DNA of 64,000 bases from Chloroflexota bacterium. Its GTDB lineage: Bacteria; Chloroflexota; Dehalococcoidia; UBA2247; RBG-13-53-26. The notes under the pieces were generated by a model. That model had not been told where the DNA came from. It ran no database searches and saw nothing but the letters and a program-made list of their open reading frames with translations. The position numbers were made by a program, and so were the translations under genes. Positions 21,171-62,630 of this stretch are shown here, in pieces. The first letter of the stretch is position 1; each line of letters starts with the position of its first letter. The stretch lies in the NCBI GenBank assembly GCA_016875915.1, contig VGOM01000009.1:1-64000 (forward strand), written 5' to 3'.

Positions 21171-22052
21171 CTACAGCCCCAGGCTCTTGTAGCGCGCATC
21201 CCTGGCGTGGAAGGCATCTTTGGCGGTGCCCCTGTCTCTCCTCTCCTTGAAGAAGTTGAACTCATCGTCCTCCCACCTCAGGTTGGTGAACAGCGTGTGC
21301 GAGATGTAGGCCGGGACGAAGTCGCTGATCAGTCCTATCCGATCGAAGATGATGTGGCGGGTGGCCTTCCCGATGGCGATGCCGTCGCGGGGGAGCAGGG
21401 TCATGGCCATGGCCAGCTTGCGGGTCTCTTCGTCCAGCTTGTCTGCCGGGACGGCCTTGTTCACCAGTCCGATCTCCGCTGCTTCCTTGCCCGATATCGT
21501 CTTGCCGGTGAGCAGGAGCTCCATGGCCCTCTTCATTCCCACGTGGTAGATCAGGTGGGTGATGCCCAGCACACCGCTGCCTGAGAAGCCCAGCCGCTGC
21601 TCGGTCAGGCCCAGCTTGGCATCCTCGGCTGCCACGGCCAGGTCGCACAGCAGGGGGAAGTACACCCCGCCGCCGATGCAGTAGCCGTGAAGCTGGGAGA
21701 TGGTGATCTTGGGATTGAGGAAGACGTGCATCATGTTGTCGTCCATGCCCATCTTGTCGTACTTCAGCCTGATCCTCTGGCTGGGCTTGCGCTCGCCGGC
21801 CTTGCCGGTGCCCATGCCGTAGATGAAGCCCACCTTGGTCAGGTCATGGCCCACGGTAAAGGCCTTCCCGGAGCCCCTGAGGATGATCACTTTGACGTCG
21901 TCGTCGTCCGCCGCCTGATCGAACGCCCGCCATACCTCCTGGGCATCCTCACCCCGCCCGATCCACTGGAAGGCGTTCATCTTGTCCGGCTTGTTCATGG
22001 TGATGGTGGCGATCTGGTCCTTCACTTCGTAGATGATGTACTTGTAGCTCAA
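21171..22052 (-). CDS. Enoyl-CoA hydratase/isomerase (crotonase family)
   Basis: 293 residues from a TTG start preceded by GAAGGAGGAGAT; no ATG is placed as well. The crotonase fold shows ITMNKPDKMNAF, the first oxyanion-hole strand GSGKAFTVGHDL, and the second, GYCIGGGVYFPLLCDLAVA. The conserved GLTEQRLGFSGSGV follows where many members carry a catalytic glutamate. Substrate is not deducible: the family covers hydratases, isomerases, thioesterases and ring-cleaving enzymes. The C-terminal part (about 80 residues) is longer than in the shortest members. It stands alone between leuS and a terminator. Confidence 0.9.
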   Translation of the reverse strand: MSYKYIIYEVKDQIATITMNKPDKMNAFQWIGRGEDAQEVWRAFDQAADDDDVKVIILRGSGKAFTVGHDLTKVGFIYGMGTGKAGERKPSQRIRLKYDKMGMDDNMMHVFLNPKITISQLHGYCIGGGVYFPLLCDLAVAAEDAKLGLTEQRLGFSGSGVLGITHLIYHVGMKRAMELLLTGKTISGKEAAEIGLVNKAVPADKLDEETRKLAMAMTLLPRDGIAIGKATRHIIFDRIGLISDFVPAYISHTLFTNLRWEDDEFNFFKERRDRGTAKDAFHARDARYKSLGL

Positions 22053-22180
22053 ATCTCCTCCTTCAACGATTGTTTGTCGCAGGGGTCGGCATTCGCAGCC
22101 CTTCCCCTGGTTGCGGCTTCGTCTTCCCGGTACGCGTCTCTCTCGATACCCTCTCACTCCTCTCCGGTGCCATGTCTTGC

Positions 22181-24681: not shown

Positions 24682-24714
24682 CAAACCCCGGAGACGGAAG
24701 GTCCCCGGGGTTTG
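24682..24714 (-). terminator. Terminator of the DUF35-thiolase-HMGCS-like operon
   Basis: CAAACCCCGG (24682-24691) pairs with CCGGGGTTTG (24705-24714). Read leftward, the hairpin is followed by TTTGTGTTCGGGGTTTTC. It lies 25 bases beyond the stop of the last gene of the operon and before leuS. Confidence 0.75.
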
Positions 24715-24739: not shown

Positions 24740-25756
24740 CTAGTAGGGGACGCGTCTGAGGTTGCCCATCAGCCTCAGGTAGGCCGGGTAGTCCACATAG
24801 GTCTTGCGGGCGATGTACTTCTCCAGTGTAGTGGTCCTGCCCCTCTTCTTCTCGATGGCTTCATTGGCCACAATGCTGAAGGCAGTGGCCGTGCCCGACC
24901 CGTAGGAGGCGACCAGCAGCCTCTCGCCCGGCTTGGCCTGGTCCAGGGCGCCTGTCAGGCACAGGAAGGGAGACACCCCGCCTACGTCACCGATAGCCCC
25001 TGTGAGGTCAGGGAACACGTTCTTCATCCCCAGAGCCTTCCCTGCCCCGGCGGGCACCCTGGCGTCCACCTGCGGGAATATGGCCAGCTTGTAGTCAGCC
25101 GTCTTCTTGTTGATCTTGGCCATGACGGCCTTGGACGCTTCCTCTATGTGTTTCGCATAGCCATCGTCCCGGTAGAAGCGCTGGTCAAAGAGGTTGCTGA
25201 CCCAGGGGTCTTTGGCGGCTCTCCACCTGTCCAGGAACAGGGTCCGGTATGACTGCACTCCTTCGATATCGGCTATCGTCCCCTGGTTGCCGATGACCAT
25301 GGCCACGGCCGCGGCACCGAAGCTGACCTCTCCGTCCGATCCCGGCCCCACCATTCTGTTCTCGGTTCCCACCACAATGCCGCAGTCTATCCTCTTGGCC
25401 TCGACGGCCATCATGCACTGCGACAGCGCCGTACCCACTGCGTTCACGCTGCCCATGAAGTCCAGCACGGAAGCATGTGGCGACAGGTTCAGGGTCTCGG
25501 CCAGTACAGGGGAAAGGTGGGTCTCAATCATAGGCGAGGAAGCCGTGCCCATGTACAGCGCACCGACATCTGCAGCCTTGACGCCGGAGTGCTTCACGGC
25601 GTTGTCCAGGGCCTCGGCCGCCATGCTGATGATGTCCTCGTCCCAGCCGCAAACGGCCTTCTCTCCCATTGCCCATCCGCCCCAGGGGATGGCTGCGTCC
25701 TGCTGCTTTATTCTGTACTTGGGGACGTAAGCACCGTATCCAATGATTCCAATCAT
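24740..25756 (-). CDS. HMG-CoA-synthase-like protein lacking catalytic residues
   Basis: 338 residues with the thiolase-fold layout of archaeal/bacterial HMG-CoA synthase: MIGIIGYGAYVPKYRI at the start, GPGSDGEVSFGAAAVAMVIG in the middle and ASYGSGTATAFS near the end. The catalytic positions are all changed. Residue 72 is Ala where the family has Glu (GTASSPM against xTES); residues 102-103 are Gly-Ser where the nucleophilic Cys sits (DFMGSVNAVGTA); residue 228 is Pro where His stands (IFPQVDARVP); residue 257 is Asp instead of Asn. It is the last gene of an operon with an intact thiolase and a DUF35 protein, an arrangement known from archaeal acetyl-CoA thiolase/HMGCS complexes. A scaffold or CoA-binding role seems likelier than catalysis. 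The start follows AAGGAGGGAGCG. Confidence 0.85.
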   Translation of the reverse strand: MIGIIGYGAYVPKYRIKQQDAAIPWGGWAMGEKAVCGWDEDIISMAAEALDNAVKHSGVKAADVGALYMGTASSPMIETHLSPVLAETLNLSPHASVLDFMGSVNAVGTALSQCMMAVEAKRIDCGIVVGTENRMVGPGSDGEVSFGAAAVAMVIGNQGTIADIEGVQSYRTLFLDRWRAAKDPWVSNLFDQRFYRDDGYAKHIEEASKAVMAKINKKTADYKLAIFPQVDARVPAGAGKALGMKNVFPDLTGAIGDVGGVSPFLCLTGALDQAKPGERLLVASYGSGTATAFSIVANEAIEKKRGRTTTLEKYIARKTYVDYPAYLRLMGNLRRVPY

Positions 25757-25770
25757 CGCTCCCTCCTTAC

Positions 25771-26979
25771 CTATGGCTCACGACCGATGATGTTGACGGA
25801 GGATACCCCGAATCCGTTGCCACCAACGTTGTGGCTCAGGGCGATGCCCTTCTTCAACTTCACCTGCCTCACTGGTTCTATCTGTTCCCGCAGTTGCCAG
25901 AAGTTCTCGCAGATCTGGCCCAACCCTGTGGCGGCAATTGGATGTCCGTGTGCCTTCAGCCCTCCACTGGGGTTGATGGGTTTGTGCCCATCCTCTCGGT
26001 TCCAGTAGCCTTCCTTGAGGAGCTTGTGTGCTTCGCCCTTCTTGCAGAAGCCGATGTCCTCGATGTTCAGGAGTTCGGTGTTGGTGAAGCAGTCGTGAAC
26101 CTCAGCCAGGTCGACGTCCTCTGGCTTGATCCCGGCCATGTCCATGGCCATCTTCGCTGCGAACTTGGTGGCCGGCATCTCGATGAAGTTCTCTTTGTCC
26201 CACATGTCCTTGTAGTCTACCCCGGTGGCGCTTCCCAACACGTAGACCGGCTTGTCGGTGTACTTCTTGGCCAGATCGGCGCGGCAGACTATGGCGCAGG
26301 CAGCACCATCAGTCTGCGGGCAGCAGTCCAGCAGGTGCAGTGGCCAGCAGACCACCGGGCTGCTCAGCACTCTCTCCACCGTAACCTCGAAACGGTACTC
26401 CGCATAGGGACATGCCACGCCGTTGTGATGGTTCTTCACCGCTACCCGGGCGAAGTCCTCCATGGTGCAGCCCAGTTCGTGCATCTGTCTGGTGGCGTAG
26501 AGCGCCTGAAGCACCGGGCCGCCCATGCCCATCATCCAGGAGGGATGCAGGCCCAGGATGCCGCCGCCGGCTCCTCCACCAGCCGCTACCAACGATTCCA
26601 CTCCGGGCTTGTCCCTCATCTTCTCTGCGCCCAGGGCCAGAACGACATCGTAGGCACCGGAGGCGACGCCCAGCACGGCATTCCGGAAGACATCGTTGCC
26701 CGTTGGGCAGCCGTTCTCCAGCCTGCTGATGGGAATGCCCCGCAGTCCAAGGACGGTCCCCAGGGTCGTGCCCTCACGTGAGCCTTGCCCGATCATGCCA
26801 CCACCGCTCCACTGACCGAACCAGGCTGCCTTGATGTCCTTCGGGTCGAACCCCTTGTCGACGCTCTTCACGCAGCTCATGAAGGCTTCCTGGATCATAC
26901 TCTCCAGGCCCTTGTGGAAGAGTTCCCCGAAGGGGATCAAGCCCACGCCGATTATGGCTACCTTGCCCCTGACGCTCAT
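25771..26979 (-). CDS. SCP2-type thiolase / acetyl-CoA acetyltransferase-like
   Basis: 402 residues. The acyl-accepting Cys is residue 91 (ENGCPTG), followed by the two later active-site blocks EVHDCFTNTELL and GGLKAHGHPIAATG, then NVGGNGFG. All thiolase catalytic residues are present, in the SCP-x / archaeal style. A long Gly-rich stretch (AAGGGAGGGILG) lies near residue 133. It probably acts with the DUF35 partner just upstream (one base between genes) and the inactive-looking HMGCS-like protein 14 bases downstream. Reaction: thiolytic cleavage or Claisen condensation of acyl-CoA. The retro-aldol activity of Ltp2-type relatives is also possible. GAGGAGG precedes the ATG. Confidence 0.9.
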   Translation of the reverse strand: MSVRGKVAIIGVGLIPFGELFHKGLESMIQEAFMSCVKSVDKGFDPKDIKAAWFGQWSGGGMIGQGSREGTTLGTVLGLRGIPISRLENGCPTGNDVFRNAVLGVASGAYDVVLALGAEKMRDKPGVESLVAAGGGAGGGILGLHPSWMMGMGGPVLQALYATRQMHELGCTMEDFARVAVKNHHNGVACPYAEYRFEVTVERVLSSPVVCWPLHLLDCCPQTDGAACAIVCRADLAKKYTDKPVYVLGSATGVDYKDMWDKENFIEMPATKFAAKMAMDMAGIKPEDVDLAEVHDCFTNTELLNIEDIGFCKKGEAHKLLKEGYWNREDGHKPINPSGGLKAHGHPIAATGLGQICENFWQLREQIEPVRQVKLKKGIALSHNVGGNGFGVSSVNIIGREP

Positions 26980-26980
26980 G

Positions 26981-27409
26981 CTAGGCCTCCTCTACCAGTC
27001 TGAACTTGTAACCGTAGAAGTCCAATCCGCTGTCGTTCAGCAGTCTCCGGAGCACCATCTCCACCTTGGTGCCGATCTTGACTTCTTCCGGGTTGGCGAC
27101 TTCTGTGATCAGCCCCACATATCGGCCCCCGCCGTCCAGGTCAACGATGACATTGACGGTCGGCGGCTCCAGGCCGGGTGGCGGCGTCCAGTTGATGCAG
27201 AAGGTGTGCACCTTTCCCGTCTTGGGCAACTGGTGGTCCTTCTGATTGAAGCTGCCGCACTTGTGGCAGATCTTGGTCTGCGGGTAGGTTATGTGACCGC
27301 AGTCGGAACACTTCGAGCCCAGTAGGTGGTAGACGGTTGGGTTGAGTCTCCAGAACAACGGCGATGCCGGTCTCGGGGATTGCATCCTTTCTCTTTCCCA
27401 CATGGTCAT
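26981..27409 (-). CDS. DUF35 zinc-ribbon/OB-fold protein, thiolase partner
   Basis: 142 residues. The N-terminal half carries a rubredoxin-like zinc ribbon, CSDCGHITYPQTKICHKC, with four cysteines. The C-terminal half is an OB fold (VHTFCINWTPPPG, VGLITEVANPEEVKIGTKV). In characterised systems such proteins bind CoA and bridge the active sites of thiolase and HMG-CoA synthase in archaea, or complete aldolases and thiolases in steroid and toluene breakdown. It is the first gene of the operon with the thiolase and the HMGCS-like gene. AGGAGGAGATAGCAG precedes the ATG; a second in-frame ATG two codons later is possible. Confidence 0.92.
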   Translation of the reverse strand: MTMWERERMQSPRPASPLFWRLNPTVYHLLGSKCSDCGHITYPQTKICHKCGSFNQKDHQLPKTGKVHTFCINWTPPPGLEPPTVNVIVDLDGGGRYVGLITEVANPEEVKIGTKVEMVLRRLLNDSGLDFYGYKFRLVEEA

Positions 27410-27492: not shown

Positions 27493-27522
27493 ACTGTACT
27501 GCAGACGGCCCTCGTGTGTCAA
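27493..27522 (-). promoter_or_regulatory. Promoter of the DUF35-thiolase-HMGCS-like operon
   Basis: On the minus strand TTGACA (27517-27522) and TACAGT (27493-27498) are separated by 18 bases. The leader is about 75 bases. It is back to back with the acyl-CoA dehydrogenase promoter in a 250-bp divergent region, so the two units may share control. Confidence 0.6.
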
Positions 27523-27661: not shown

Positions 27662-28804
27662 ATGGACCTGAGTCTGTCTGAACAGCAAGAGATGCTCCGC
27701 AAGATGGCGCGGGATTTCCTGACCACCGAGTGTCCCAAGAAGCTGGTCAGAGACATGGAAGAAGACCCCAAGGGCTACGTGCCGGAGCTCTGGCGCAAGA
27801 TGGCCGAGCTCGGCTGGCAGGGGTTGCCCTTCCCCGAGCGATATGGCGGTGGGGACGGGAGCTTCCTGGACCTGGTCATCCTGCTGGAGGAGATGGGCCG
27901 CGCCCTTCTGCCCAGCCCCTTCTTCTCCACGGTGGCCGTCTGCGGACTGACCATCCTGGATGCCGGCACTGAATCGCAGAAGAAGCACTTTCTGACCGCA
28001 ATAGCCAACGGCGACATGATCCTCACCCTCGCCCTGGCCGAATCGGCCGGCGGATACGACGCGGCGGAGATCACCGCCCAGGCTGTCAAGCACGACGGGA
28101 AGTACGCCCTCAGCGGGACGAAGCTCTTCGTTCCCGATGCCCATGTCGCCGACTGGATACTCTGCGCGGCCAGGACCTGCAAGGGTCAGGACCTCGAGGA
28201 GGGGGTCACCGTCTTCATGACCGAACGGGCAGGCCACGGACTGACCTGTTCCGTGATGCCCTCTCTATCCAAGGAGAAGCTGTGCGAGGTGGTCCTCGAC
28301 CACGCTGCTGTGCCTGCGGAGAGCATTCTGGGCCATCTCGATCAGGGCTGGCCGGTGCTGCACCGGACTCTGCAGCGGGCGGCGGTGGCCAAGAGCGTGG
28401 AGATGGTCGGTGGGGCACAGCAGGTCCTGGAGATGACGGTCAACTATGCCAAGGAGAGGGTGCAGTTCGACAAGCCAATCGGCAGCTTTCAGGCCATCCA
28501 GCACCACTGCGCCAACATGGCCATAGACGTAGACAGCTCGCGGTATCTGGCCTATCTGGCTGCCTGGAAGATGAGCGAAGGCCAGCCGTGCGAAACGGAA
28601 GTGGCCGTGGCCAAAGCATGGGCGAGCGAGGCCTACAAGCGCATCTCCGTGCTGGGCCACCAGGTTCACGGGGCCATTGGCTTCACCCTGGATCACGACA
28701 TGCAGCTCTACTCCAGGCGGGCCAAGGCGGCGGAGGTCATCTTCGGGGATGCCGATTTCCATCGGGAGGCGCTGGCCCGGCAGTTGGAAGCTCAGCACGT
28801 CTAG
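27662..28804 (+). CDS. Acyl-CoA dehydrogenase
   Basis: 380 residues. The N-terminal helical domain (MDLSLSEQQEMLRKMARDFL), the beta domain with LALAESAGGYD for FAD contact and the C-terminal helical domain with RVQFDKPIGSFQAIQH and QVHGAIGFTLDHD are complete. The C-terminus reads KAAEVIFGDADFHREALARQ. Where medium-chain enzymes have the catalytic Glu of the IYEG box, this one has Phe-Gly-Asp, the pattern of FadE/ChsE-type proteins whose base lies elsewhere or in a partner subunit. No partner is adjacent. It is divergent from the thiolase operon and may feed it enoyl-CoA. Electron acceptor genes are absent here. Confidence 0.93.
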   Translation: MDLSLSEQQEMLRKMARDFLTTECPKKLVRDMEEDPKGYVPELWRKMAELGWQGLPFPERYGGGDGSFLDLVILLEEMGRALLPSPFFSTVAVCGLTILDAGTESQKKHFLTAIANGDMILTLALAESAGGYDAAEITAQAVKHDGKYALSGTKLFVPDAHVADWILCAARTCKGQDLEEGVTVFMTERAGHGLTCSVMPSLSKEKLCEVVLDHAAVPAESILGHLDQGWPVLHRTLQRAAVAKSVEMVGGAQQVLEMTVNYAKERVQFDKPIGSFQAIQHHCANMAIDVDSSRYLAYLAAWKMSEGQPCETEVAVAKAWASEAYKRISVLGHQVHGAIGFTLDHDMQLYSRRAKAAEVIFGDADFHREALARQLEAQHV

Positions 28805-38482: not shown

Positions 38483-39418
38483 TTACTTCTTGTCCTCGGG
38501 CGGGGCCGGATTGACGTAGCCCTTGAGCAGGTTGGGCATGCACTTCTCCACTTCGTCCACGGTCCACTTGCCGTAGGTGTCCCAATCCCGGTTGTAGATC
38601 GCGGTCTCCTTGGACGGCGCCCAGTAGGAGAAGAAGGCCCCCGCCGTGCCGAAGATGCAGCCATTGACGTGACCGGCCTTGTCGCTGGCCAGGTAGGCCG
38701 GGATGGCTGCCAGGTAGTCGGCTGTGGCCACATGGGTCACTTCATCATACTTCTCCTTGGTCCACAGTCCTGACTCCACTCGCTTCTTGTATCCCGCCAG
38801 GACGTCCGGTCCCAAGGTCATCCTGGTGGCCGCCCTGGGGCAGATGGCATTGCAGGTCACCCCGTACCGGCCCAGCTCCCAGGCCACGGCGTAGGTCAGG
38901 CTGGCGATGCCGCCCTTGGCCGCGCCGTAGTTCACGTGACCCACGGTGCCCACGAAGGCTTCGGAGATGGTGTTCACGATCCGGCCGTACTTCTGCTCTC
39001 TCATAAGGGGGGCGGCATGGCGGATGGTGTTGAAGGTACCCTTGAGGTGTACCGCTATCACTACGTCCCAGTCCTCTTCCGAGAGGTTCCAGATCATTCT
39101 GGCCCTGTCGATGCCGGCCACGTTGACCAGGATGTCTATCCTGCCGAAGTTGCTGACGCAGGCCTGGATCATGGCCTCGGCGGCCTTGAAATCGGCCACG
39201 CTGCCATACTGGGGTATGGCCTGGACGCCTAGCTTCTTGCACTCCTCAACGGTGGCGTCGGCCAGAGTGGTGCTGGCTCCCTTGCCGTCAACGCCCCCGC
39301 CCAGGTCGCAGACCACGATGTTGGCTCCCTCGGCGGCCAGCGCCACGGCCACTGCCTTGCCGATGCCGCTGCCGGCACCAGTGACTACTGCATTCCTGCC
39401 CTTCAGTCTGTCAGCCAT
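38483..39418 (-). CDS. Short-chain dehydrogenase, tandem copy 1
   Basis: 311 residues. Rossmann TGAGSGIGKA at the start, CDLG after strand 2, and catalytic Ser in VNTISEAF, Tyr-Lys in NYGAAKGG. The segment AICPRAATRMT suits an NAD-dependent 3-hydroxyacyl-CoA or related dehydrogenase. About 50 residues extend beyond the usual SDR core and end in GYVNPAPPEDKK, a tail shared with the next two genes. It is the last of five leftward genes that also encode the hydratase pair. Confidence 0.93.
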   Translation of the reverse strand: MADRLKGRNAVVTGAGSGIGKAVAVALAAEGANIVVCDLGGGVDGKGASTTLADATVEECKKLGVQAIPQYGSVADFKAAEAMIQACVSNFGRIDILVNVAGIDRARMIWNLSEEDWDVVIAVHLKGTFNTIRHAAPLMREQKYGRIVNTISEAFVGTVGHVNYGAAKGGIASLTYAVAWELGRYGVTCNAICPRAATRMTLGPDVLAGYKKRVESGLWTKEKYDEVTHVATADYLAAIPAYLASDKAGHVNGCIFGTAGAFFSYWAPSKETAIYNRDWDTYGKWTVDEVEKCMPNLLKGYVNPAPPEDKK

Positions 39419-39451
39419 GATGTCGAATCCTCCTTATCGAATCAACTGTCT

Positions 39452-40396
39452 CTACTTCTTCTCTTCCGGCTTTGGTGGAGCCGGGTTGACATAGCCCTTG
39501 AGCAGCTTGTCCGCTGCGAAGGCCGCCTTGATGGCCTCCACGGTCCACGGCCCTTCACTGGGGTTCTCCGCCTGGGCCACCGGTTCCGGCTTGCTGTATC
39601 GGGCCACGGTCAGGGCCGTGGTCAGGAACACCTGCCCGTTGACCAGGGCAGCATCATCGCTGGCGAGGAAGGCCACGATCCCGGCAAATGCCGAAGGGTC
39701 AACCATCTCCCGGTCCATCCTCTTCAGCACCGAGGCATCCATCAGCCCCTTCTCCACCCGCTTGACCACCATCTCCCGCACCTTGGGGTCATCCGTCATC
39801 CGCGTCTTCGCCCGGGGGCAGATGGCGTTCACGGTTATCCCCGACGGACCCAGTTCCTGGGCCGCTCCCCAGGTGAGGGTGACGATGCCGCCCTTGGCTG
39901 CACCGTAGTTGAGGTGGGTCACGCCGCCCAGCCAGGCTTCCGAGGTGCAGTTGATGATCCTGCCGTATCGCTGCTCCCTCATCAAAGGAGCGGCCTGTCT
40001 CATGAAATTGAAGGTGCCCTTCAGATGGACGGCGACCACCTGGTCCCACTCCTCCTCGGACATGTTCCAGATCATCTTGGGCTTGTCTATTCCGGCGATG
40101 TTGCACAGGATGTCGATCCTGCCGAAGTTGTCCACGCAGGCCTTGACTGCTGCCTCGGCATCGCTGAACTTGGCCACGTTGCCGAACTGGGCGATGGCCT
40201 TGACGCCATGCTTCTTGCACTCGGCCACCGTCTCGGCGGCTGGACTCTGATCGGTCCCTGAGCCGTCCACGGCCACGCCGAGATCGCAGGCCACCACGTT
40301 GGCACCCTGCTCGGCCAGGGCCACGGCCACTGCCCTGCCGATCCCCCTCCCCGCACCGGTCACCACCGCGTTCTTGCCCTTCAGTCTATCACCCAT
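39452..40396 (-). CDS. Short-chain dehydrogenase, tandem copy 2
   Basis: 314 residues. TGAGRGIGRA, CDLG, INCTSEAWLG and NYGAAKGG give the complete SDR active site. It differs from copy 1 in the substrate-side part (MVDPSAFAGIVAFLASDDA). The C-terminus again reads LLKGYVNPAPPKPEEKK. The ATG is preceded by AAAGGAGGACCG. Together with copies 1 and 3 it looks like a tandem duplication with later divergence. Confidence 0.93.
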   Translation of the reverse strand: MGDRLKGKNAVVTGAGRGIGRAVAVALAEQGANVVACDLGVAVDGSGTDQSPAAETVAECKKHGVKAIAQFGNVAKFSDAEAAVKACVDNFGRIDILCNIAGIDKPKMIWNMSEEEWDQVVAVHLKGTFNFMRQAAPLMREQRYGRIINCTSEAWLGGVTHLNYGAAKGGIVTLTWGAAQELGPSGITVNAICPRAKTRMTDDPKVREMVVKRVEKGLMDASVLKRMDREMVDPSAFAGIVAFLASDDAALVNGQVFLTTALTVARYSKPEPVAQAENPSEGPWTVEAIKAAFAADKLLKGYVNPAPPKPEEKK

Positions 40397-40479
40397 GAAT
40401 CGGTCCTCCTTTGTTCTAGTCTGTGCAGTCCGTCATCTGACGATTCATCGACACCACCCGTCGGCAGCAAGGCGGTCAC

Positions 40480-41424
40480 TCAGGCCTTCGCCGGCGCGGG
40501 ATTCACGTATTCTGACAGAAGCTCCGACGGAACCCGCTTCTCCAGTTCCGCGATGCTCCAGGGCTCCTCGATCTCCCAGTCCCGGGTGAACTTGTGGATG
40601 ATGGCCGGGTGGTTCCACACCCCGATGGTGGCCCTGGAGGCCACAAAGACGCAGCCGTTCACATTGGCCGCCGCGTCGCTGGCCAGGTAGGCCACGAAGG
40701 GAGCGAAGTGCTCCGGGTCGGCCCCCTCCCTCCTGGTCTCCTCCATCCCCTGCAGGCGTTCCTCCGAGATGAGGCCGGCCTCCATCCGCTTCTGCAGTCC
40801 CTGATCCTGGTCGTCTCCCACGCTCAGCCTGGTTCGCGCCCGCGGTGCGAAGGCATTGCAGGTCACCCCGTATCTGCCCATCTCCCTGGCCACGTCGTAG
40901 GTCAGGCTGACGATGCCGCCCTTGGCTGCGGCGTAGTTGGAGTGGCCCACGGTCCCGGCGTAGGCCTCGGAGGTGCAGTTGACGATCCGGCCGTACCTCT
41001 GCTGTCTCATGACCGCGCACGCGTGTCTGCAGAGGTTCCAGGTTCCCTTGAGGTGGACGGCCAGCACCCGGTCGAAATCCTCTTCCGACATGTTGAAGAT
41101 CATCCTGGGTCTGAGGATGCCGGCTATGTTGCACAGGATGTCCAGGCTGCCGAACCGGCTGACGCAGGCCCGGACCATCTCTTCGGTGGCCTTGAAGTCG
41201 GAGACATCGGCGGAGTATGCACTGGCCTCGACGCCGAGCTTGCGGCATTCCCCGGCCGTGTCTTCGGCGGGACCCTGGTCGCTGCCCGTCCCGTCCATGG
41301 CCACCCCCAGATCGCAGACCAGAACGTTGGCTCCCTCCCTGGCCAACGCCAGGGCCACTGCCCTGCCGATTCCCCTGCCGGCACCGGTCACCAGCGCACT
41401 TCTGCGCCTTAGCCTCTGCCCCAA
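40480..41424 (-). CDS. Short-chain dehydrogenase, tandem copy 3
   Basis: 314 residues. TGAGRGIGRA, CDLG, VNCTSEAYAG and NYAAAKGG are intact. The YVNPAPAKA tail marks it as the third paralogue, with a slightly different C-terminal region (WNHPAIIHKFTRDWEIEEPW). It starts only 22 bases from the MaoC-like gene's stop, so it is co-transcribed with the hydratase pair, whose (R)-3-hydroxyacyl-CoA product would be a plausible substrate. Confidence 0.93.
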   Translation of the reverse strand: MGQRLRRRSALVTGAGRGIGRAVALALAREGANVLVCDLGVAMDGTGSDQGPAEDTAGECRKLGVEASAYSADVSDFKATEEMVRACVSRFGSLDILCNIAGILRPRMIFNMSEEDFDRVLAVHLKGTWNLCRHACAVMRQQRYGRIVNCTSEAYAGTVGHSNYAAAKGGIVSLTYDVAREMGRYGVTCNAFAPRARTRLSVGDDQDQGLQKRMEAGLISEERLQGMEETRREGADPEHFAPFVAYLASDAAANVNGCVFVASRATIGVWNHPAIIHKFTRDWEIEEPWSIAELEKRVPSELLSEYVNPAPAKA

Positions 41425-41896: not shown

Positions 41897-42322
41897 CTAG
41901 TAGGTCATGATGGTGTTGGTGCTCACGGCCACGGTCTCACCCTTCTGGTTCTTGTGGGTTGACCGGTAGACCATCAGGGCGCGGGGCCCCTTGTCGCTGG
42001 ACTTGTCCTGAAGCTCGACGAATTCGTGTGAAGTGTGGATGACGTCGCCCTTCTTGATCGGCTTCACGAACTCCCAGTCGGCTCCCCCGGCCACGCTTCT
42101 CTTGAAGGGCAGCGGCACGCCCAGGAGCATGGCACCGCTGCTGATCATGGCGGTGGTCACCAGGCCGGGAGGGGCAATCCCCACCTTCCACTGGGGATTG
42201 GCGTCGCCGATGCACTCGCAGTAGGCTCTGATCACGGTCCCGTCGATCTCCATCGACTCCTCTCGCTTCCTGCCGATGTGGGACCTCACCTCATCCAGTG
42301 TCGCCAGTTTCTTCTCGGTCAT
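41897..42322 (-). CDS. FAS1-like/MaoC N-terminal dehydratase subunit (non-catalytic)
   Basis: 141 residues from an ATG preceded by AAGGAGGGTCT. It resembles the N-terminal half of MaoC hydratases (REESMEIDGTVIRAYCECIG, DANPQWKVGIAPPGLVTTAM). The position of the catalytic His is taken by Trp-Lys in NPQWK, so it should be the structural or substrate-binding partner of the next gene. It is the first gene of the hydratase-SDR operon. Confidence 0.85.
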   Translation of the reverse strand: MTEKKLATLDEVRSHIGRKREESMEIDGTVIRAYCECIGDANPQWKVGIAPPGLVTTAMISSGAMLLGVPLPFKRSVAGGADWEFVKPIKKGDVIHTSHEFVELQDKSSDKGPRALMVYRSTHKNQKGETVAVSTNTIMTY

Positions 42323-42360
42323 AGACCCTCCTTGTCCAGACGATTGTGCTGCAAGAAAAG

Positions 42361-42388
42361 GATATCTGAAAGCCCGTTGGTAAGTCAA
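42361..42388 (-). promoter_or_regulatory. Promoter of the hydratase-SDR operon
   Basis: On the minus strand TTGACT (42383-42388) and GATATC (42361-42366) with 16 bases between. The gene start is about 35 bases downstream. Confidence 0.45.
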
Positions 42389-42433
42389 AACTGTTCGCGT
42401 TGCCGCAACCATCCTGTGTGATAGACGGGATGG

Positions 42434-42456
42434 CCCCGGACGGCCGTGCTCCGGGG
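42434..42456 (-). terminator. Possible terminator of the first VTT gene
   Basis: CCCCGGA and TCCGGGG form a seven-pair stem with a nine-base loop, just past the stop of the leftward gene. There is no T run, so it may be only a weak structure. Confidence 0.35.
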
Positions 42457-42468
42457 GCTGGCTCCCGG

Positions 42469-43167
42469 CTAGAACTCCACGCCGAACAGGCGGAGGAGGT
42501 AGGACAGCAGTCCGTAGCCCACCAGGGCGATGACCGTCCACTTGACGGTCTTCCCGGCCCAGACGATGAGGAAGAACTTCCACGCCGGGAAGCGCAATGC
42601 CCCGGCGGTAGCCCCGATCACGCTGAAGAAGGGATTGAACACCGCCGATGAGAGGAACAGGGCCAGGGCCCCTCGGGTCCTGATCCATTTCTCCAGCTGG
42701 TAGTACAGACCCTCGGTATTGCCGGTGATGGTGGACCGGCCCTTGATGAAGAAGGCGTGGCCGCTGCGCCCTGCGAAGTAACCCACCAGCTCGCCCATGG
42801 CCTCGCCCACGCCGGCGGTCAGGCCGACCAGGAACGGATTCAGCACGCCGCCCAGGGCGAACATCACCGGAACGCTGGGGACGAAGGCAATCACCGTGGC
42901 GGAAGCCGTCAGGCTGATCAGGAACACCCCCAGGTAGCCGTACTGCTGGAAGTCGGCGATGTGCTCCCTGAAGACCACTATGGACACGGTGGTGCCGGTG
43001 ATCAGCAGGGCTGCCACCACAAACCACTGCCAGCGCTCCTTGAACCAGTGCCGCTTCTTCCCGGGGGTGGAGCTGACAGCCTGGGTGTCATGGGCGCCCT
43101 GAGTCTGCCCGGCAGCCTGGCTGTCCTGACCGCCTGTTACCGGGGTATCCTGGTTTGTCTGATCCAT
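42469..43167 (-). CDS. VTT/DedA-family membrane protein
   Basis: 232 residues from the ATG at 43167. A Gln/Thr-rich cytoplasmic tail of about 30 residues precedes a hydrophobic helix (FVVAALLITGTTVSIVVF). The VTT (SNARE-associated) core shows FVPSVPVMFALGGVLNPF, VGEAMGELVGYFAGRSG and SSAVFNPFFSVIGATAGALR, which fits the membrane-embedded reentrant loops of DedA proteins, believed to move lipids such as undecaprenyl phosphate. A paralogue lies 177 bases upstream. Confidence 0.85.
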   Translation of the reverse strand: MDQTNQDTPVTGGQDSQAAGQTQGAHDTQAVSSTPGKKRHWFKERWQWFVVAALLITGTTVSIVVFREHIADFQQYGYLGVFLISLTASATVIAFVPSVPVMFALGGVLNPFLVGLTAGVGEAMGELVGYFAGRSGHAFFIKGRSTITGNTEGLYYQLEKWIRTRGALALFLSSAVFNPFFSVIGATAGALRFPAWKFFLIVWAGKTVKWTVIALVGYGLLSYLLRLFGVEF

Positions 43168-59458: not shown

Positions 59459-60442
59459 TCACTCGCCCTTGACCCTGCGCAGCCAGTGCTCCACCCACGA
59501 CACCAGTTCGCCGTGGCTCAGGATCTCCTCGGCGGCCGAGTAGGGGTCGAGGTCGCCCTTCTCCACCTTCTCCAGGTAGGCGTTGAGCTGCCCGTCGCTC
59601 TCCACCAGCCTCAGCACCTGGCTGGTGATCCTGTCCTCGATGGTGTGCAGCAGGTCAGCCCTCCGCTGCTTCTGCCGCTTCAACGACAGCCTGCCGCTGC
59701 ACTTTAGCGCCTCGTAGTGTTTCTCGATGTGCTGGTACAGCTCCCTGGTGCCCACGTCGTTGGTGGCTTGGGTGGCCACGATGGGCACCTCCCACCACTC
59801 ATTCTTGGGCTTCTGGTGGAGCATGGCCATCAGGTCGGCCACCACCAGGTCGGCCCCGGGCCGGTCGGCCTTGTTCACCGCGAAGACGTCGGCGATCTCC
59901 ATTAGCCCGGCCTTCATGGTCTGGATGGTGTCCCCGGCCTCGGGGACCAGCACCACCACCACTGTGTCCACCGTCTCCATGACGTCGATCTCCGTCTGGC
60001 CCACCCCCACCGTCTCCACGAGGATGACGTCCTTCCCTGAGGCATCCATCAGCTTGATCACGCTGGGCGCCGTCCTGGGCAGTCCCCCGTGGCTGCCCCG
60101 GGTGGCCATGCTGCGGATGAACACCCCCTCGTCCAGGAAGTGCTGCTGCATCCTGATCCTGTCCCCCAGCACCGCCCCTCCCGAGAACGGGCTGGTTGGG
60201 TCGACCGCCAGTACCCCGACCTTCAACCCCTTCTCCCTGGCGATCCCGGTCAGCCGGCCCACCAGCGTGCTCTTGCCTCCGCCGGGGGGGCCGGTGACAC
60301 CCACGCACAGCGCCTTGCCGGTGTGAGGATAGACGGCCCTCAGTATCTCGGGCGCCTCTGGGCTCTCTCTCTCCACCAGGGTGATCAGTCGGGCCAGCGC
60401 CTGCTTGTCGCCGGAGAGCATCTTCTCTACCAGTTCGGTCAT
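59459..60442 (-). CDS. MeaB-type GTPase for B12-dependent mutase
   Basis: 327 residues from the ATG at 60442 with GAGGAGACCGA upstream. P-loop GVTGPPGGGKSTLVGRL, DPTSPFSGGAVLGDRIRM (metal- and switch-type), VETVGVGQTEID, and NKAD at the guanine-specific site. MeaB proteins gate cobalamin loading and protect methylmalonyl-CoA-mutase-type enzymes. It is divergent from the mutase gene, the usual functional partner; they share a 136-bp region. Confidence 0.95.
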   Translation of the reverse strand: MTELVEKMLSGDKQALARLITLVERESPEAPEILRAVYPHTGKALCVGVTGPPGGGKSTLVGRLTGIAREKGLKVGVLAVDPTSPFSGGAVLGDRIRMQQHFLDEGVFIRSMATRGSHGGLPRTAPSVIKLMDASGKDVILVETVGVGQTEIDVMETVDTVVVVLVPEAGDTIQTMKAGLMEIADVFAVNKADRPGADLVVADLMAMLHQKPKNEWWEVPIVATQATNDVGTRELYQHIEKHYEALKCSGRLSLKRQKQRRADLLHTIEDRITSQVLRLVESDGQLNAYLEKVEKGDLDPYSAAEEILSHGELVSWVEHWLRRVKGE

Positions 60443-60501
60443 TCGGTCTCCTCGTTCCGTTCGGCGGCCGGGATGGCGGCACAATGCTGCAACCCTGAGT
60501 T

Positions 60502-60531
60502 TTGCAGTCGGGCCGTGCTTACTGATATTAT
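60502..60531 (+). promoter_or_regulatory. Promoter of the acyl-CoA mutase genes
   Basis: TTGCAG at 60502, an 18-base spacer, and TGATATTAT at 60523-60531 (extended -10). The mutase start is about 48 bases away behind CGAGGAGGCTCC. No cobalamin riboswitch is visible. Confidence 0.6.
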
Positions 60532-60578
60532 AGTTGGGAACGAATCGGATTCAAATCCGGCACTATCGAGGAGGCTCC

Positions 60579-62180
60579 ATGGCTGAGAACAAGGACGGGC
60601 AGGTCTATACCGCGTCAGGCATACCCGTCAAGGACATCTACACACCGGATGACGTCAAGAAGGTCGACTACAACCGGGACCTGGGCTCGCCCGGCCAGCC
60701 GCCGTTCACCCGCGGTGTCTATGCCAGCATGTACCGCGGCCAGCTGTGGACCATCAGGCGTCTCACCGGCTACAGCACTCCCGAGGACACCAACAAGCGC
60801 TACCGCGATGAATACGCCATGGGGCAGACCGGCTTCTCCATCGCCCCTGACATCTCCACCGCCGCCGGCATGGACCCCGACGACCCCCGGGTCTCGGCGG
60901 ACGTTGGCCATTCCGGCGTTCCCATCTACTCCATCGAGGACATGGAGGTCGTCTTCGATGGCCTGCCCATTGAGAAGTGCTCCACCTACCTCGCAGACCG
61001 TGTCGGTGGACTGCTAAGTCCGGCCTACTTCATCATGGCTGAGAAGCGGGGCATCCCCCTCAACTACGTCAGAGGCACTACCCCCAATGACCTGTTCACC
61101 TGGAGCTCCATGGACCTGGCCAACCAGCCCCCTCCCGATGCCTACGTCCGCTATGCCGTGGACTTCATCGAGTGGTGCACCGAGCACGCGCCCCGCTGGT
61201 ACCCCGTCTCATTCAATTCCTACAACCCGCGTGACAACGGCCTGAGCGCCGTCCAGGAGGTCGGCGGGCTCATGGCCACGGTCATCCAGTATGTTGATGA
61301 GGAGAAGCGCCGGGGCAGGATCCCCCTGAATAAGTTCGTCAAACGCTTCGCCTTCAATATGGCGGCCAACAACGACTTCTTCGAGGAGATCGCCAAGTTC
61401 CGCGCCGCCCGGCGGATGCTCTACCGGTTGATGAAGGACAGATACGGCATCGACGACCCCACTTGCGGCCAGTTGCGCGTTCACGTTCAGACCTCTGGCT
61501 CCACCCACACCCACCAGGAACCCCTGAACAACCTGGTCCGTATCGCCTACCAGGTGCTCGCCGGTGTCCTCGGCGGGGCCCAGTCAATCCACGCCAACGG
61601 CTACGACGAGGCCGTCTGCCTCCCCACGGAGGAGGCCATGCTCCTCGCCATACGCACCGAGCAGATCGTTGCCCTGGAGACCGGCGTCACCAACACCGTC
61701 GATCCCCTGGGCGGCTCCTACTACGTGGAGAGCCTCACCAATGAGCTGGAGGAGCGCGCCTGGGACTACGTCAAGAGGATTGAGGACGTCGGCGGTATGG
61801 CCGAGGCGGTCAAGTCGGGATGGATCCACAGAGAGTACAAAGCGGCCATCATCGACTATGAACGCAAGCTGGATGCCGGCGATGTCACCGTTGTCGGAGT
61901 CAACAAGTTCCGTCTGGAGAAACCGCCCTACAAGGTGCCTATCTTCAGGCCCGATCCCAAGTCCCCCGATCTGCTCATCGAGAGGATCAAGCTGCTCCGC
62001 AAGAACAGGGACAATGCCCGCGCCGCAGCCGCGCTGAAGGAGTATGAGAGGGCGGCCCGCAGCACCGAGAACACCGTGCCGGCCATCTTCGAGGCGGTCA
62101 AGGCCCACGCCACTCCCGGCGAGCTTGCCGAAGTTCAGCTCAGAGTCACCGGTGGCTGGACCTACCCCATCGCCGGATAA
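60579..62180 (+). CDS. B12-dependent acyl-CoA mutase, large subunit, unusual specificity
   Basis: 533 residues, the TIM-barrel substrate domain without the cobalamin domain. Family marks: TRGVYASMYRGQLWTIR, GQTGFSIAPDIS, FFEEIAKFRAARRM, TVDPLGGSYYVESLT. Three residues that define methylmalonyl-CoA mutase have changed: Tyr89 (after WTIRQ) is Leu62, Arg207 aligns to Asp179, and His244 (GYHxxEAG) is Asn216 in NSYNPRDNG. GTIQND has become GTTPND. These alter substrate carboxylate binding and radical chemistry, so the substrate is probably not methylmalonyl-CoA. The B12 subunit follows after 18 bases. The start has a perfect binding site. Confidence 0.9.
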   Translation: MAENKDGQVYTASGIPVKDIYTPDDVKKVDYNRDLGSPGQPPFTRGVYASMYRGQLWTIRRLTGYSTPEDTNKRYRDEYAMGQTGFSIAPDISTAAGMDPDDPRVSADVGHSGVPIYSIEDMEVVFDGLPIEKCSTYLADRVGGLLSPAYFIMAEKRGIPLNYVRGTTPNDLFTWSSMDLANQPPPDAYVRYAVDFIEWCTEHAPRWYPVSFNSYNPRDNGLSAVQEVGGLMATVIQYVDEEKRRGRIPLNKFVKRFAFNMAANNDFFEEIAKFRAARRMLYRLMKDRYGIDDPTCGQLRVHVQTSGSTHTHQEPLNNLVRIAYQVLAGVLGGAQSIHANGYDEAVCLPTEEAMLLAIRTEQIVALETGVTNTVDPLGGSYYVESLTNELEERAWDYVKRIEDVGGMAEAVKSGWIHREYKAAIIDYERKLDAGDVTVVGVNKFRLEKPPYKVPIFRPDPKSPDLLIERIKLLRKNRDNARAAAALKEYERAARSTENTVPAIFEAVKAHATPGELAEVQLRVTGGWTYPIAG

Positions 62181-62198
62181 CTGAAGGAGAGGATGCTC

Positions 62199-62630
62199 AT
62201 GGACAAGAAGAGAGTCAAGATACTCATGGCCAAGCCCGGACTGGAGGGTCACTGGCGGGGCATGATCGCCGTCAGCAGCGCCTTCAGGGACGCTGGCTTC
62301 GAGGTGGTCTACGGCGGCAATATCCTCCCGCCGGAGATCGCTGCCACCGCCCTGCAGGAAGATGTGGATATCGTGGGGCTGAGCATCCTGTCGTCGAACT
62401 ACATGCGCCTGGTAGCCGAGACCATCAAGGAACTGAAGGCCCGCGGCAAGGGCGATGTCATGGTCCTCCTCGGTGGCATCATCTATGAAGAGGACTTCCC
62501 TGCCCTGAAGGAGATGGGCGTCGCCGGGATATTCGTCCCCGGAACTCCGCTGAAGGACATCGTGGACTTCGTCAACGAGAAGATGTCCGCTCCGGCCCAC
62601 AAAGGCCACAAGACCCACAGAGCAAAGTAG
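62199..62630 (+). CDS. Cobalamin-binding subunit of the acyl-CoA mutase
   Basis: 143 residues; AAGGAG lies nine bases before the ATG (an ATG two codons earlier is possible). The Rossmann-like B12 domain shows ILMAKPGLEGHWRGMIAV. The DxHxxG motif reads E-G-H-W-R-G: the cobalt-ligating His is kept but the Asp that tunes it has become Glu. Then VDIVGLSILSSNY and VLLGGIIYEEDF follow. It partners the large subunit upstream. A 10-pair hairpin follows. Confidence 0.92.
   Translation: MDKKRVKILMAKPGLEGHWRGMIAVSSAFRDAGFEVVYGGNILPPEIAATALQEDVDIVGLSILSSNYMRLVAETIKELKARGKGDVMVLLGGIIYEEDFPALKEMGVAGIFVPGTPLKDIVDFVNEKMSAPAHKGHKTHRAK

Follow-up and report, generated by a model that had tools for sequence, protein, structure and literature searches.

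The three genes at 24740–27409 of the analysed window, a stretch of 64,000 nucleotides from a Dehalococcoidia contig (VGOM01000009.1), form a real and well-conserved operon. Their products, a DUF35 protein, an SCP2-type thiolase and a protein resembling HMG-CoA synthase (HMGCS), probably make up one catabolic heteromeric thiolase complex for an unusual β-ketoacyl-CoA, in which the HMGCS-like subunit would be an inactive scaffold or cavity wall. We infer substrate, assembly and activity from homologs, gene fusion and gene neighbourhoods. The pairing of an intact thiolase with a dead HMGCS subunit, in catabolic surroundings, seems to be a widespread and so far undescribed variant; the class is not described in the literature searched, which covered few subscription journals.

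Operon structure and conservation

The open reading frames of the trio and the neighbouring genes that bear on its function are as follows.

24740–25756, minus strand: HMGCS-like subunit, 338 aa, matching 6ESQ_I, without the Glu/Cys/His of HMGCS
25771–26979, minus strand: SCP2-type thiolase subunit, 402 aa, matching 6ESQ_A, active-site columns intact
26981–27409, minus strand: DUF35 subunit, 142 aa, zinc ribbon and OB fold (Pfam PF12172/PF01796)
27662–28804, plus strand: acyl-CoA dehydrogenase, divergent from the trio (Pfam acyl-CoA dehydrogenase domains)
21171–22157, minus strand: crotonase-family protein, downstream of leuS in the same minus-strand run (Pfam ECH_1)

The three frames agree with the 24740–27409 span of the preliminary description and are read on the minus strand in the order DUF35–thiolase–HMGCS-like. 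They are separated by only 1 and 14 bases, as in a tight operon, and the third gene (HMGCS-like) is preceded by a Shine–Dalgarno-like aaggagg. A −35/−10-like site was located at 27522–27493 and a weak terminator at 24699–24686, the totals of both scans being not clearly above those of shuffled sequences. The nearest co-directional neighbour of the trio in the window is leuS. Further away, three tandem SDR-family dehydrogenases (38483–41424) and, near them, a MaoC-like protein (frame 41897–43027) were named by eye; they are possibly further acyl-CoA degradation genes.

Among named relatives, a Dehalococcoidia MAG is the nearest. That the three genes belong together, as had been supposed beforehand, was borne out by the neighbourhood comparison: the trio is conserved in 5/5 related genomes with enough contig, and fused and thiolase-linked forms occur in many more. 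The gene order was retained in G009 (locus L010), G005, G006 and G010, and in G009 the acyl-CoA dehydrogenase is divergent from the trio as in the window, while G008 and G003 are represented by fragments that retain the leuS side, with crotonase, prs and secA after the leuS region in G008 (L055). The thiolase is 92, 89 and 85% identical in relatives. In the trio of G010 (L044, 4117–6974) a second thiolase is inserted in tandem; the two are 64% and 69% identical to that of the window, with motifs intact in both. In a phylum-wide search of 400 genomes, the close separate-gene form was rare outside the family and order of the window, a result obtained at a limit of 1e-55 that is too strict and bears on this close form only.

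Subunits and their relation to solved complexes

The same three protein types occur side by side in the archaeal thiolase/HMGCS/DUF35 complex of Methanothermococcus thermolithotrophicus (PDB 6ESQ/6ET9). This likeness, drawn from the letters alone in the preliminary description, was confirmed by sequence comparison, where the archaeal complex gave the best match for each subunit: E = 2e-46 for the HMGCS-like protein against 6ESQ_I, 1e-76 for the thiolase against 6ESQ_A and 1e-14 for DUF35 against 6ESQ_E. The structure predicted by AlphaFold2 for the HMGCS-like protein (pLDDT 89, pTM 0.90) had chain I of 6ET9/6ESQ as its best PDB fold match (TM 0.91), followed by PhlA. PhlACB (PDB 5M3K/5MG5, 9SKH/9SKM), which likewise consists of three subunits, is the next-best solved relative for the HMGCS-like and DUF35 parts (PhlB, E = 3e-14).

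The thiolase and DUF35 subunits had been called intact, and the alignments agree. The thiolase, whose closest sequence relative is the archaeal acetoacetyl-CoA thiolase, keeps C91 (ENGCPTG), H295 (HDCF), H346 (GHP) and N384 (NVGG), the set of Cys, HDCF, GH and Asn being identical in the active archaeal enzyme. Cys, HDCF and GH were present in 19/19 partner thiolases checked, and Asn in 18/19. With an intact Cys/HDCF/GHP thiolase and a DUF35 partner, the trio falls among the DUF35-linked SCP2-type thiolases. The Cys4 zinc site of DUF35 (C34/C37/C48/C51) is invariant in orthologs, and the N-terminal tail before W20 is conserved in them as well. The corresponding tail of PhlB is reported to lie buried in PhlACB, and the archaeal protein has none (PMC6392133), so that in this respect the DUF35 subunit of the window resembles PhlB and differs from its archaeal counterpart.

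The third subunit, described at the outset as seemingly dead, has Ala, Val and Pro in place of E82, C114 and H238 of archaeal HMGCS. The archaeal enzyme, with Cys114 and Glu82 in place, is active and supplies the mevalonate pathway, whereas the protein of the window is predicted from these replacements to be inactive. Glu and Cys were absent in 43/43 relatives (36 from the genome survey and 7 from plasmids), a few of which carry Asp for Glu, and the His was kept solely in a haloarchaeal sequence. At the Cys position the relatives vary freely between Val, Leu, Pro, Thr, Ile, Met, Gln and His, which are mostly non-nucleophilic.

Comparison with an 83% identical relative gave 31, 32 and 129 changes at codon positions 1, 2 and 3 of the HMGCS-like gene, and dN/dS values (NG86) of 0.13 for the HMGCS-like, 0.07 for the thiolase and 0.075 for the DUF35 gene; against more distant relatives the HMGCS-like value was 0.11. 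The HMGCS-like gene thus evolves faster than its partner genes, yet is clearly under purifying selection. Pseudogene decay was ruled out, because a dN/dS of 0.11–0.13 and the lack of stop codons are not those of a relic.

A bacterial trio with an inactive HMGCS-like subunit, overlooked in the preliminary description, was already known in PhlACB; lack of Cys and Glu in this subunit is common to PhlACB and the trio of the window (PMC6392133). PhlACB is active only with all three subunits, each of which contributes to the cavity lining, while the acting residues are those of PhlC alone (PMC6392133). As early as 2010, phlABC was described as DUF35 with 'an active, as well as an inactive' member of the thiolase superfamily (PMC2954200), so that a trio whose third member is dead is no new principle. 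The present trio differs in its combination of a full thiolase motif set, a catabolic setting and multiplication in one genome.

Two further systems are more distant. MucABC of Streptococcus (PDB 9VBO/9VBT) is also three-part, with an HMGCS/KAS-III-like, a thiolase-like and a PhlB-family subunit; its HMGCS-like part matches at E = 2e-11, and its cluster serves tetramate acetylation. Benzoylsuccinyl-CoA thiolase BbsAB (PDB 7PXP) is a catabolic thiolase into which a DUF35 zinc-finger subunit is integrated, but it is distant in sequence and has no HMGCS-like subunit; the window proteins reached 40.4 of 250 and 181.2 of 750 bits of the BbsA and BbsB family cut-offs. On a Priestia megaterium plasmid (L061, 4992–7770), a PhlA/PhlC/PhlB-like trio lies upstream of NRPS genes. 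Tetramate clusters of the muc-like type have been described for Priestia (PMC10161427), and this locus is probably one of them.

Fused paralogs and metabolic context

Seven further HMGCS-like proteins, 33–36% identical to that of the window, are encoded in the source genome. In 7/7 a DUF35 domain forms one protein with the HMGCS-like part, and the thiolase is the next gene in six of them (one cut by the contig end) and lies three genes downstream in the seventh. The separate subunits of the window are expected to associate, because their homologs fuse the HMGCS-like and DUF35 parts, which is good, though indirect, evidence. Beside one fused paralog (L054, 14375–17212), two thiolase-like proteins without the catalytic Cys and a DUF35 protein were observed.

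Plasmids of Sphingomonas, Rhodococcus, Azoarcus, Tistrella, Variovorax and Haladaptatus also carry the fused form with an adjacent thiolase, with sets of SDR, MaoC, acyl-CoA dehydrogenase and CoA-transferase genes at the Sphingomonas, Variovorax and Tistrella loci. At locus L047 the gene row reads crotonase (by sequence only), 3-hydroxyacyl-/3-hydroxybutyryl-CoA dehydrogenase, fusion, thiolase and acyl-CoA dehydrogenase, and the fusion groups with the window clade in the HMGCS tree at modest support (90/61). This tree, which holds one active HMGCS sequence and was midpoint-rooted, sets PhlA apart from the window clade and fits one or several losses of the active site alike.

A B12-dependent mutase system is located at the far end of the window, with the MeaB gene divergent from a split mutase of large and small subunits (59459–62630).

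59459–60484, minus strand: MeaB-type GTPase, 73% and 67% identical to MeaB of L042 and L043
60534–62180, plus strand: B12-dependent acyl-CoA mutase large subunit, 81% and 74% identical to the mutase of L042 and L043
62193–62630, plus strand: B12-binding mutase small subunit, from the translation after 62180; the L042 counterpart matches TIGR00640

In G005 and G006 the trio adjoins a B12 acyl-CoA mutase and MeaB; the mutase and MeaB genes of the window are orthologs of these, but their distance to the trio is 33 kb. Mutases with an identity of 72% or more were found in the source genome itself and in G003, G005, G006, G008 and G009, all of which have the trio or a piece of it, while in G007 such a mutase (a partial match) occurs in the absence of the trio, and G010 has the trio but no close mutase. 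The mutase of the window has Leu at what we take to be the position of Tyr89 of methylmalonyl-CoA mutase. Literature searches on SAR202/Chloroflexi thiolase paralogs and for a link to 2-hydroxyisobutyryl-CoA mutase returned nothing of use.

Proposed reaction and competing interpretations

As in the archaeal complex and PhlACB, DUF35 would bridge a thiolase dimer and an HMGCS-like dimer. The thiolase would be the sole catalytic subunit, with Cys91 taking the acyl group, CoA being exchanged, and His346, His295 and Asn384 assisting, while the HMGCS-like pseudoenzyme would keep the scaffold and, above a substrate that is bulky or branched, close or shape the shared cavity; it may, as first suggested, bind or shield an intermediate. 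The complex is proposed to run catabolically, as the last, thiolytic step of a β-oxidation-like pathway for an unusual acyl-CoA, a pathway that in this family of bacteria would also use the B12-dependent acyl-CoA mutase. Since thiolases are reversible, the direction of the reaction is taken from the neighbouring genes alone.

This reversibility, together with the archaeal acetoacetyl-CoA thiolase as closest relative by sequence, also suits a biosynthetic condensing thiolase that makes a β-ketoacyl-CoA and whose dead subunit holds the product, which would correspond to the archaeal complex minus its second step. Such a role is considered unlikely, as HMG-CoA reductase was not found in the source genome (93% complete), the neighbours are acyl-CoA dehydrogenase, crotonase and mutase, and eight complexes per genome better suit a range of catabolic substrates. 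The missing reductase, together with the presence of DXR, also excludes a mevalonate enzyme in general, within the limits of this genome completeness. A complex with a genuine HMG-CoA synthase, implied by the NCBIfam name of NF003274 ('hydroxymethylglutaryl-CoA synthase'), is effectively refuted on these grounds and by the absence of Glu, Cys and His, even though the protein scores above the model's cut-off (255.7 vs 244 bits). That the HMGCS-like subunit catalyses some other, unrecognised reaction is quite improbable: the strong purifying selection and polar residues invariant among orthologs, such as N105, E78 and H203, would accord with this, whereas the freely varying Cys position and the presence of only 15 invariant columns in 30 sequences, few of them polar, speak against it.

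The identical subunit plan with an inactive HMGCS-like member (PMC6392133) and the rank of PhlA as second-best structural match would also be expected of a C-acyltransferase of the PhlACB/MucABC kind, which moves an acyl group between carbon acceptors for a secondary metabolite, without CoA. PhlACB acts in this way on phenols and belongs to an antibiotic cluster, whereas the neighbours of the window trio are catabolic. The PhlC active site (Cys88, Tyr298, His347, Ser349) differs from that of the window thiolase, with Tyr for the His of HDCF (YD motif) and Ser after GH, where the window has GHPI for GHAS. Among the window ORFs read no type III PKS, the mark of the PhlACB cluster, was seen, and the neighbours read include β-oxidation genes instead of PKS or NRPS genes; as PhlA also lies outside the window clade, an acyltransferase of this kind is improbable. 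Of the two possibilities left side by side in the preliminary description, a modified thiolase or aldolase complex, the thiolase is upheld by its intact motifs and the aldolase is not. A thiolase fold with a DUF35 partner, and ChsH2 (6OK1) among the DUF35 matches, recall the retro-aldolase complexes Ltp2–ChsH2 and Sal–Shy. The catalytic motif of these aldolases is YDHF or YDCY (PMC12329534), whereas the window thiolase and its relatives have the SCP2-thiolase HDCF and a nucleophilic Cys, and neither aldolase complex has an HMGCS-like subunit. A retro-aldolase was rejected on the thiolase motifs and is held to be very improbable.

Beyond the catabolic thiolase complex favoured for this operon, it is conceivable, and put forward here tentatively, that the family as a whole represents catabolic thiolases of a widespread kind not described before. 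Their HMG-CoA synthase, inactivated and in many cases fused to DUF35, would take no part in catalysis but be indispensable as a subunit, adapting the thiolase to β-ketoacyl-CoAs that are bulky or branched. One Dehalococcoidia genome would hold eight complexes of this class, and in its clade the class would be linked to a B12 acyl-CoA mutase.

For annotation, the passing of the NCBI cut-off without catalytic residues means that mevalonate capacity may be assigned wrongly to genomes encoding proteins of this kind, and the NF003274 model needs a residue check. The family is an example of an enzyme retained as a pseudoenzyme subunit, and its natural variants (separate, fused, active and inactive) allow direct tests of the role of the dead subunit. 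In Dehalococcoidia and in bacteria beyond them, it points to unassigned routes of acyl-CoA degradation; a widespread dead-HMGCS thiolase class acting with a B12 mutase would, if true, mark a new degradation route.
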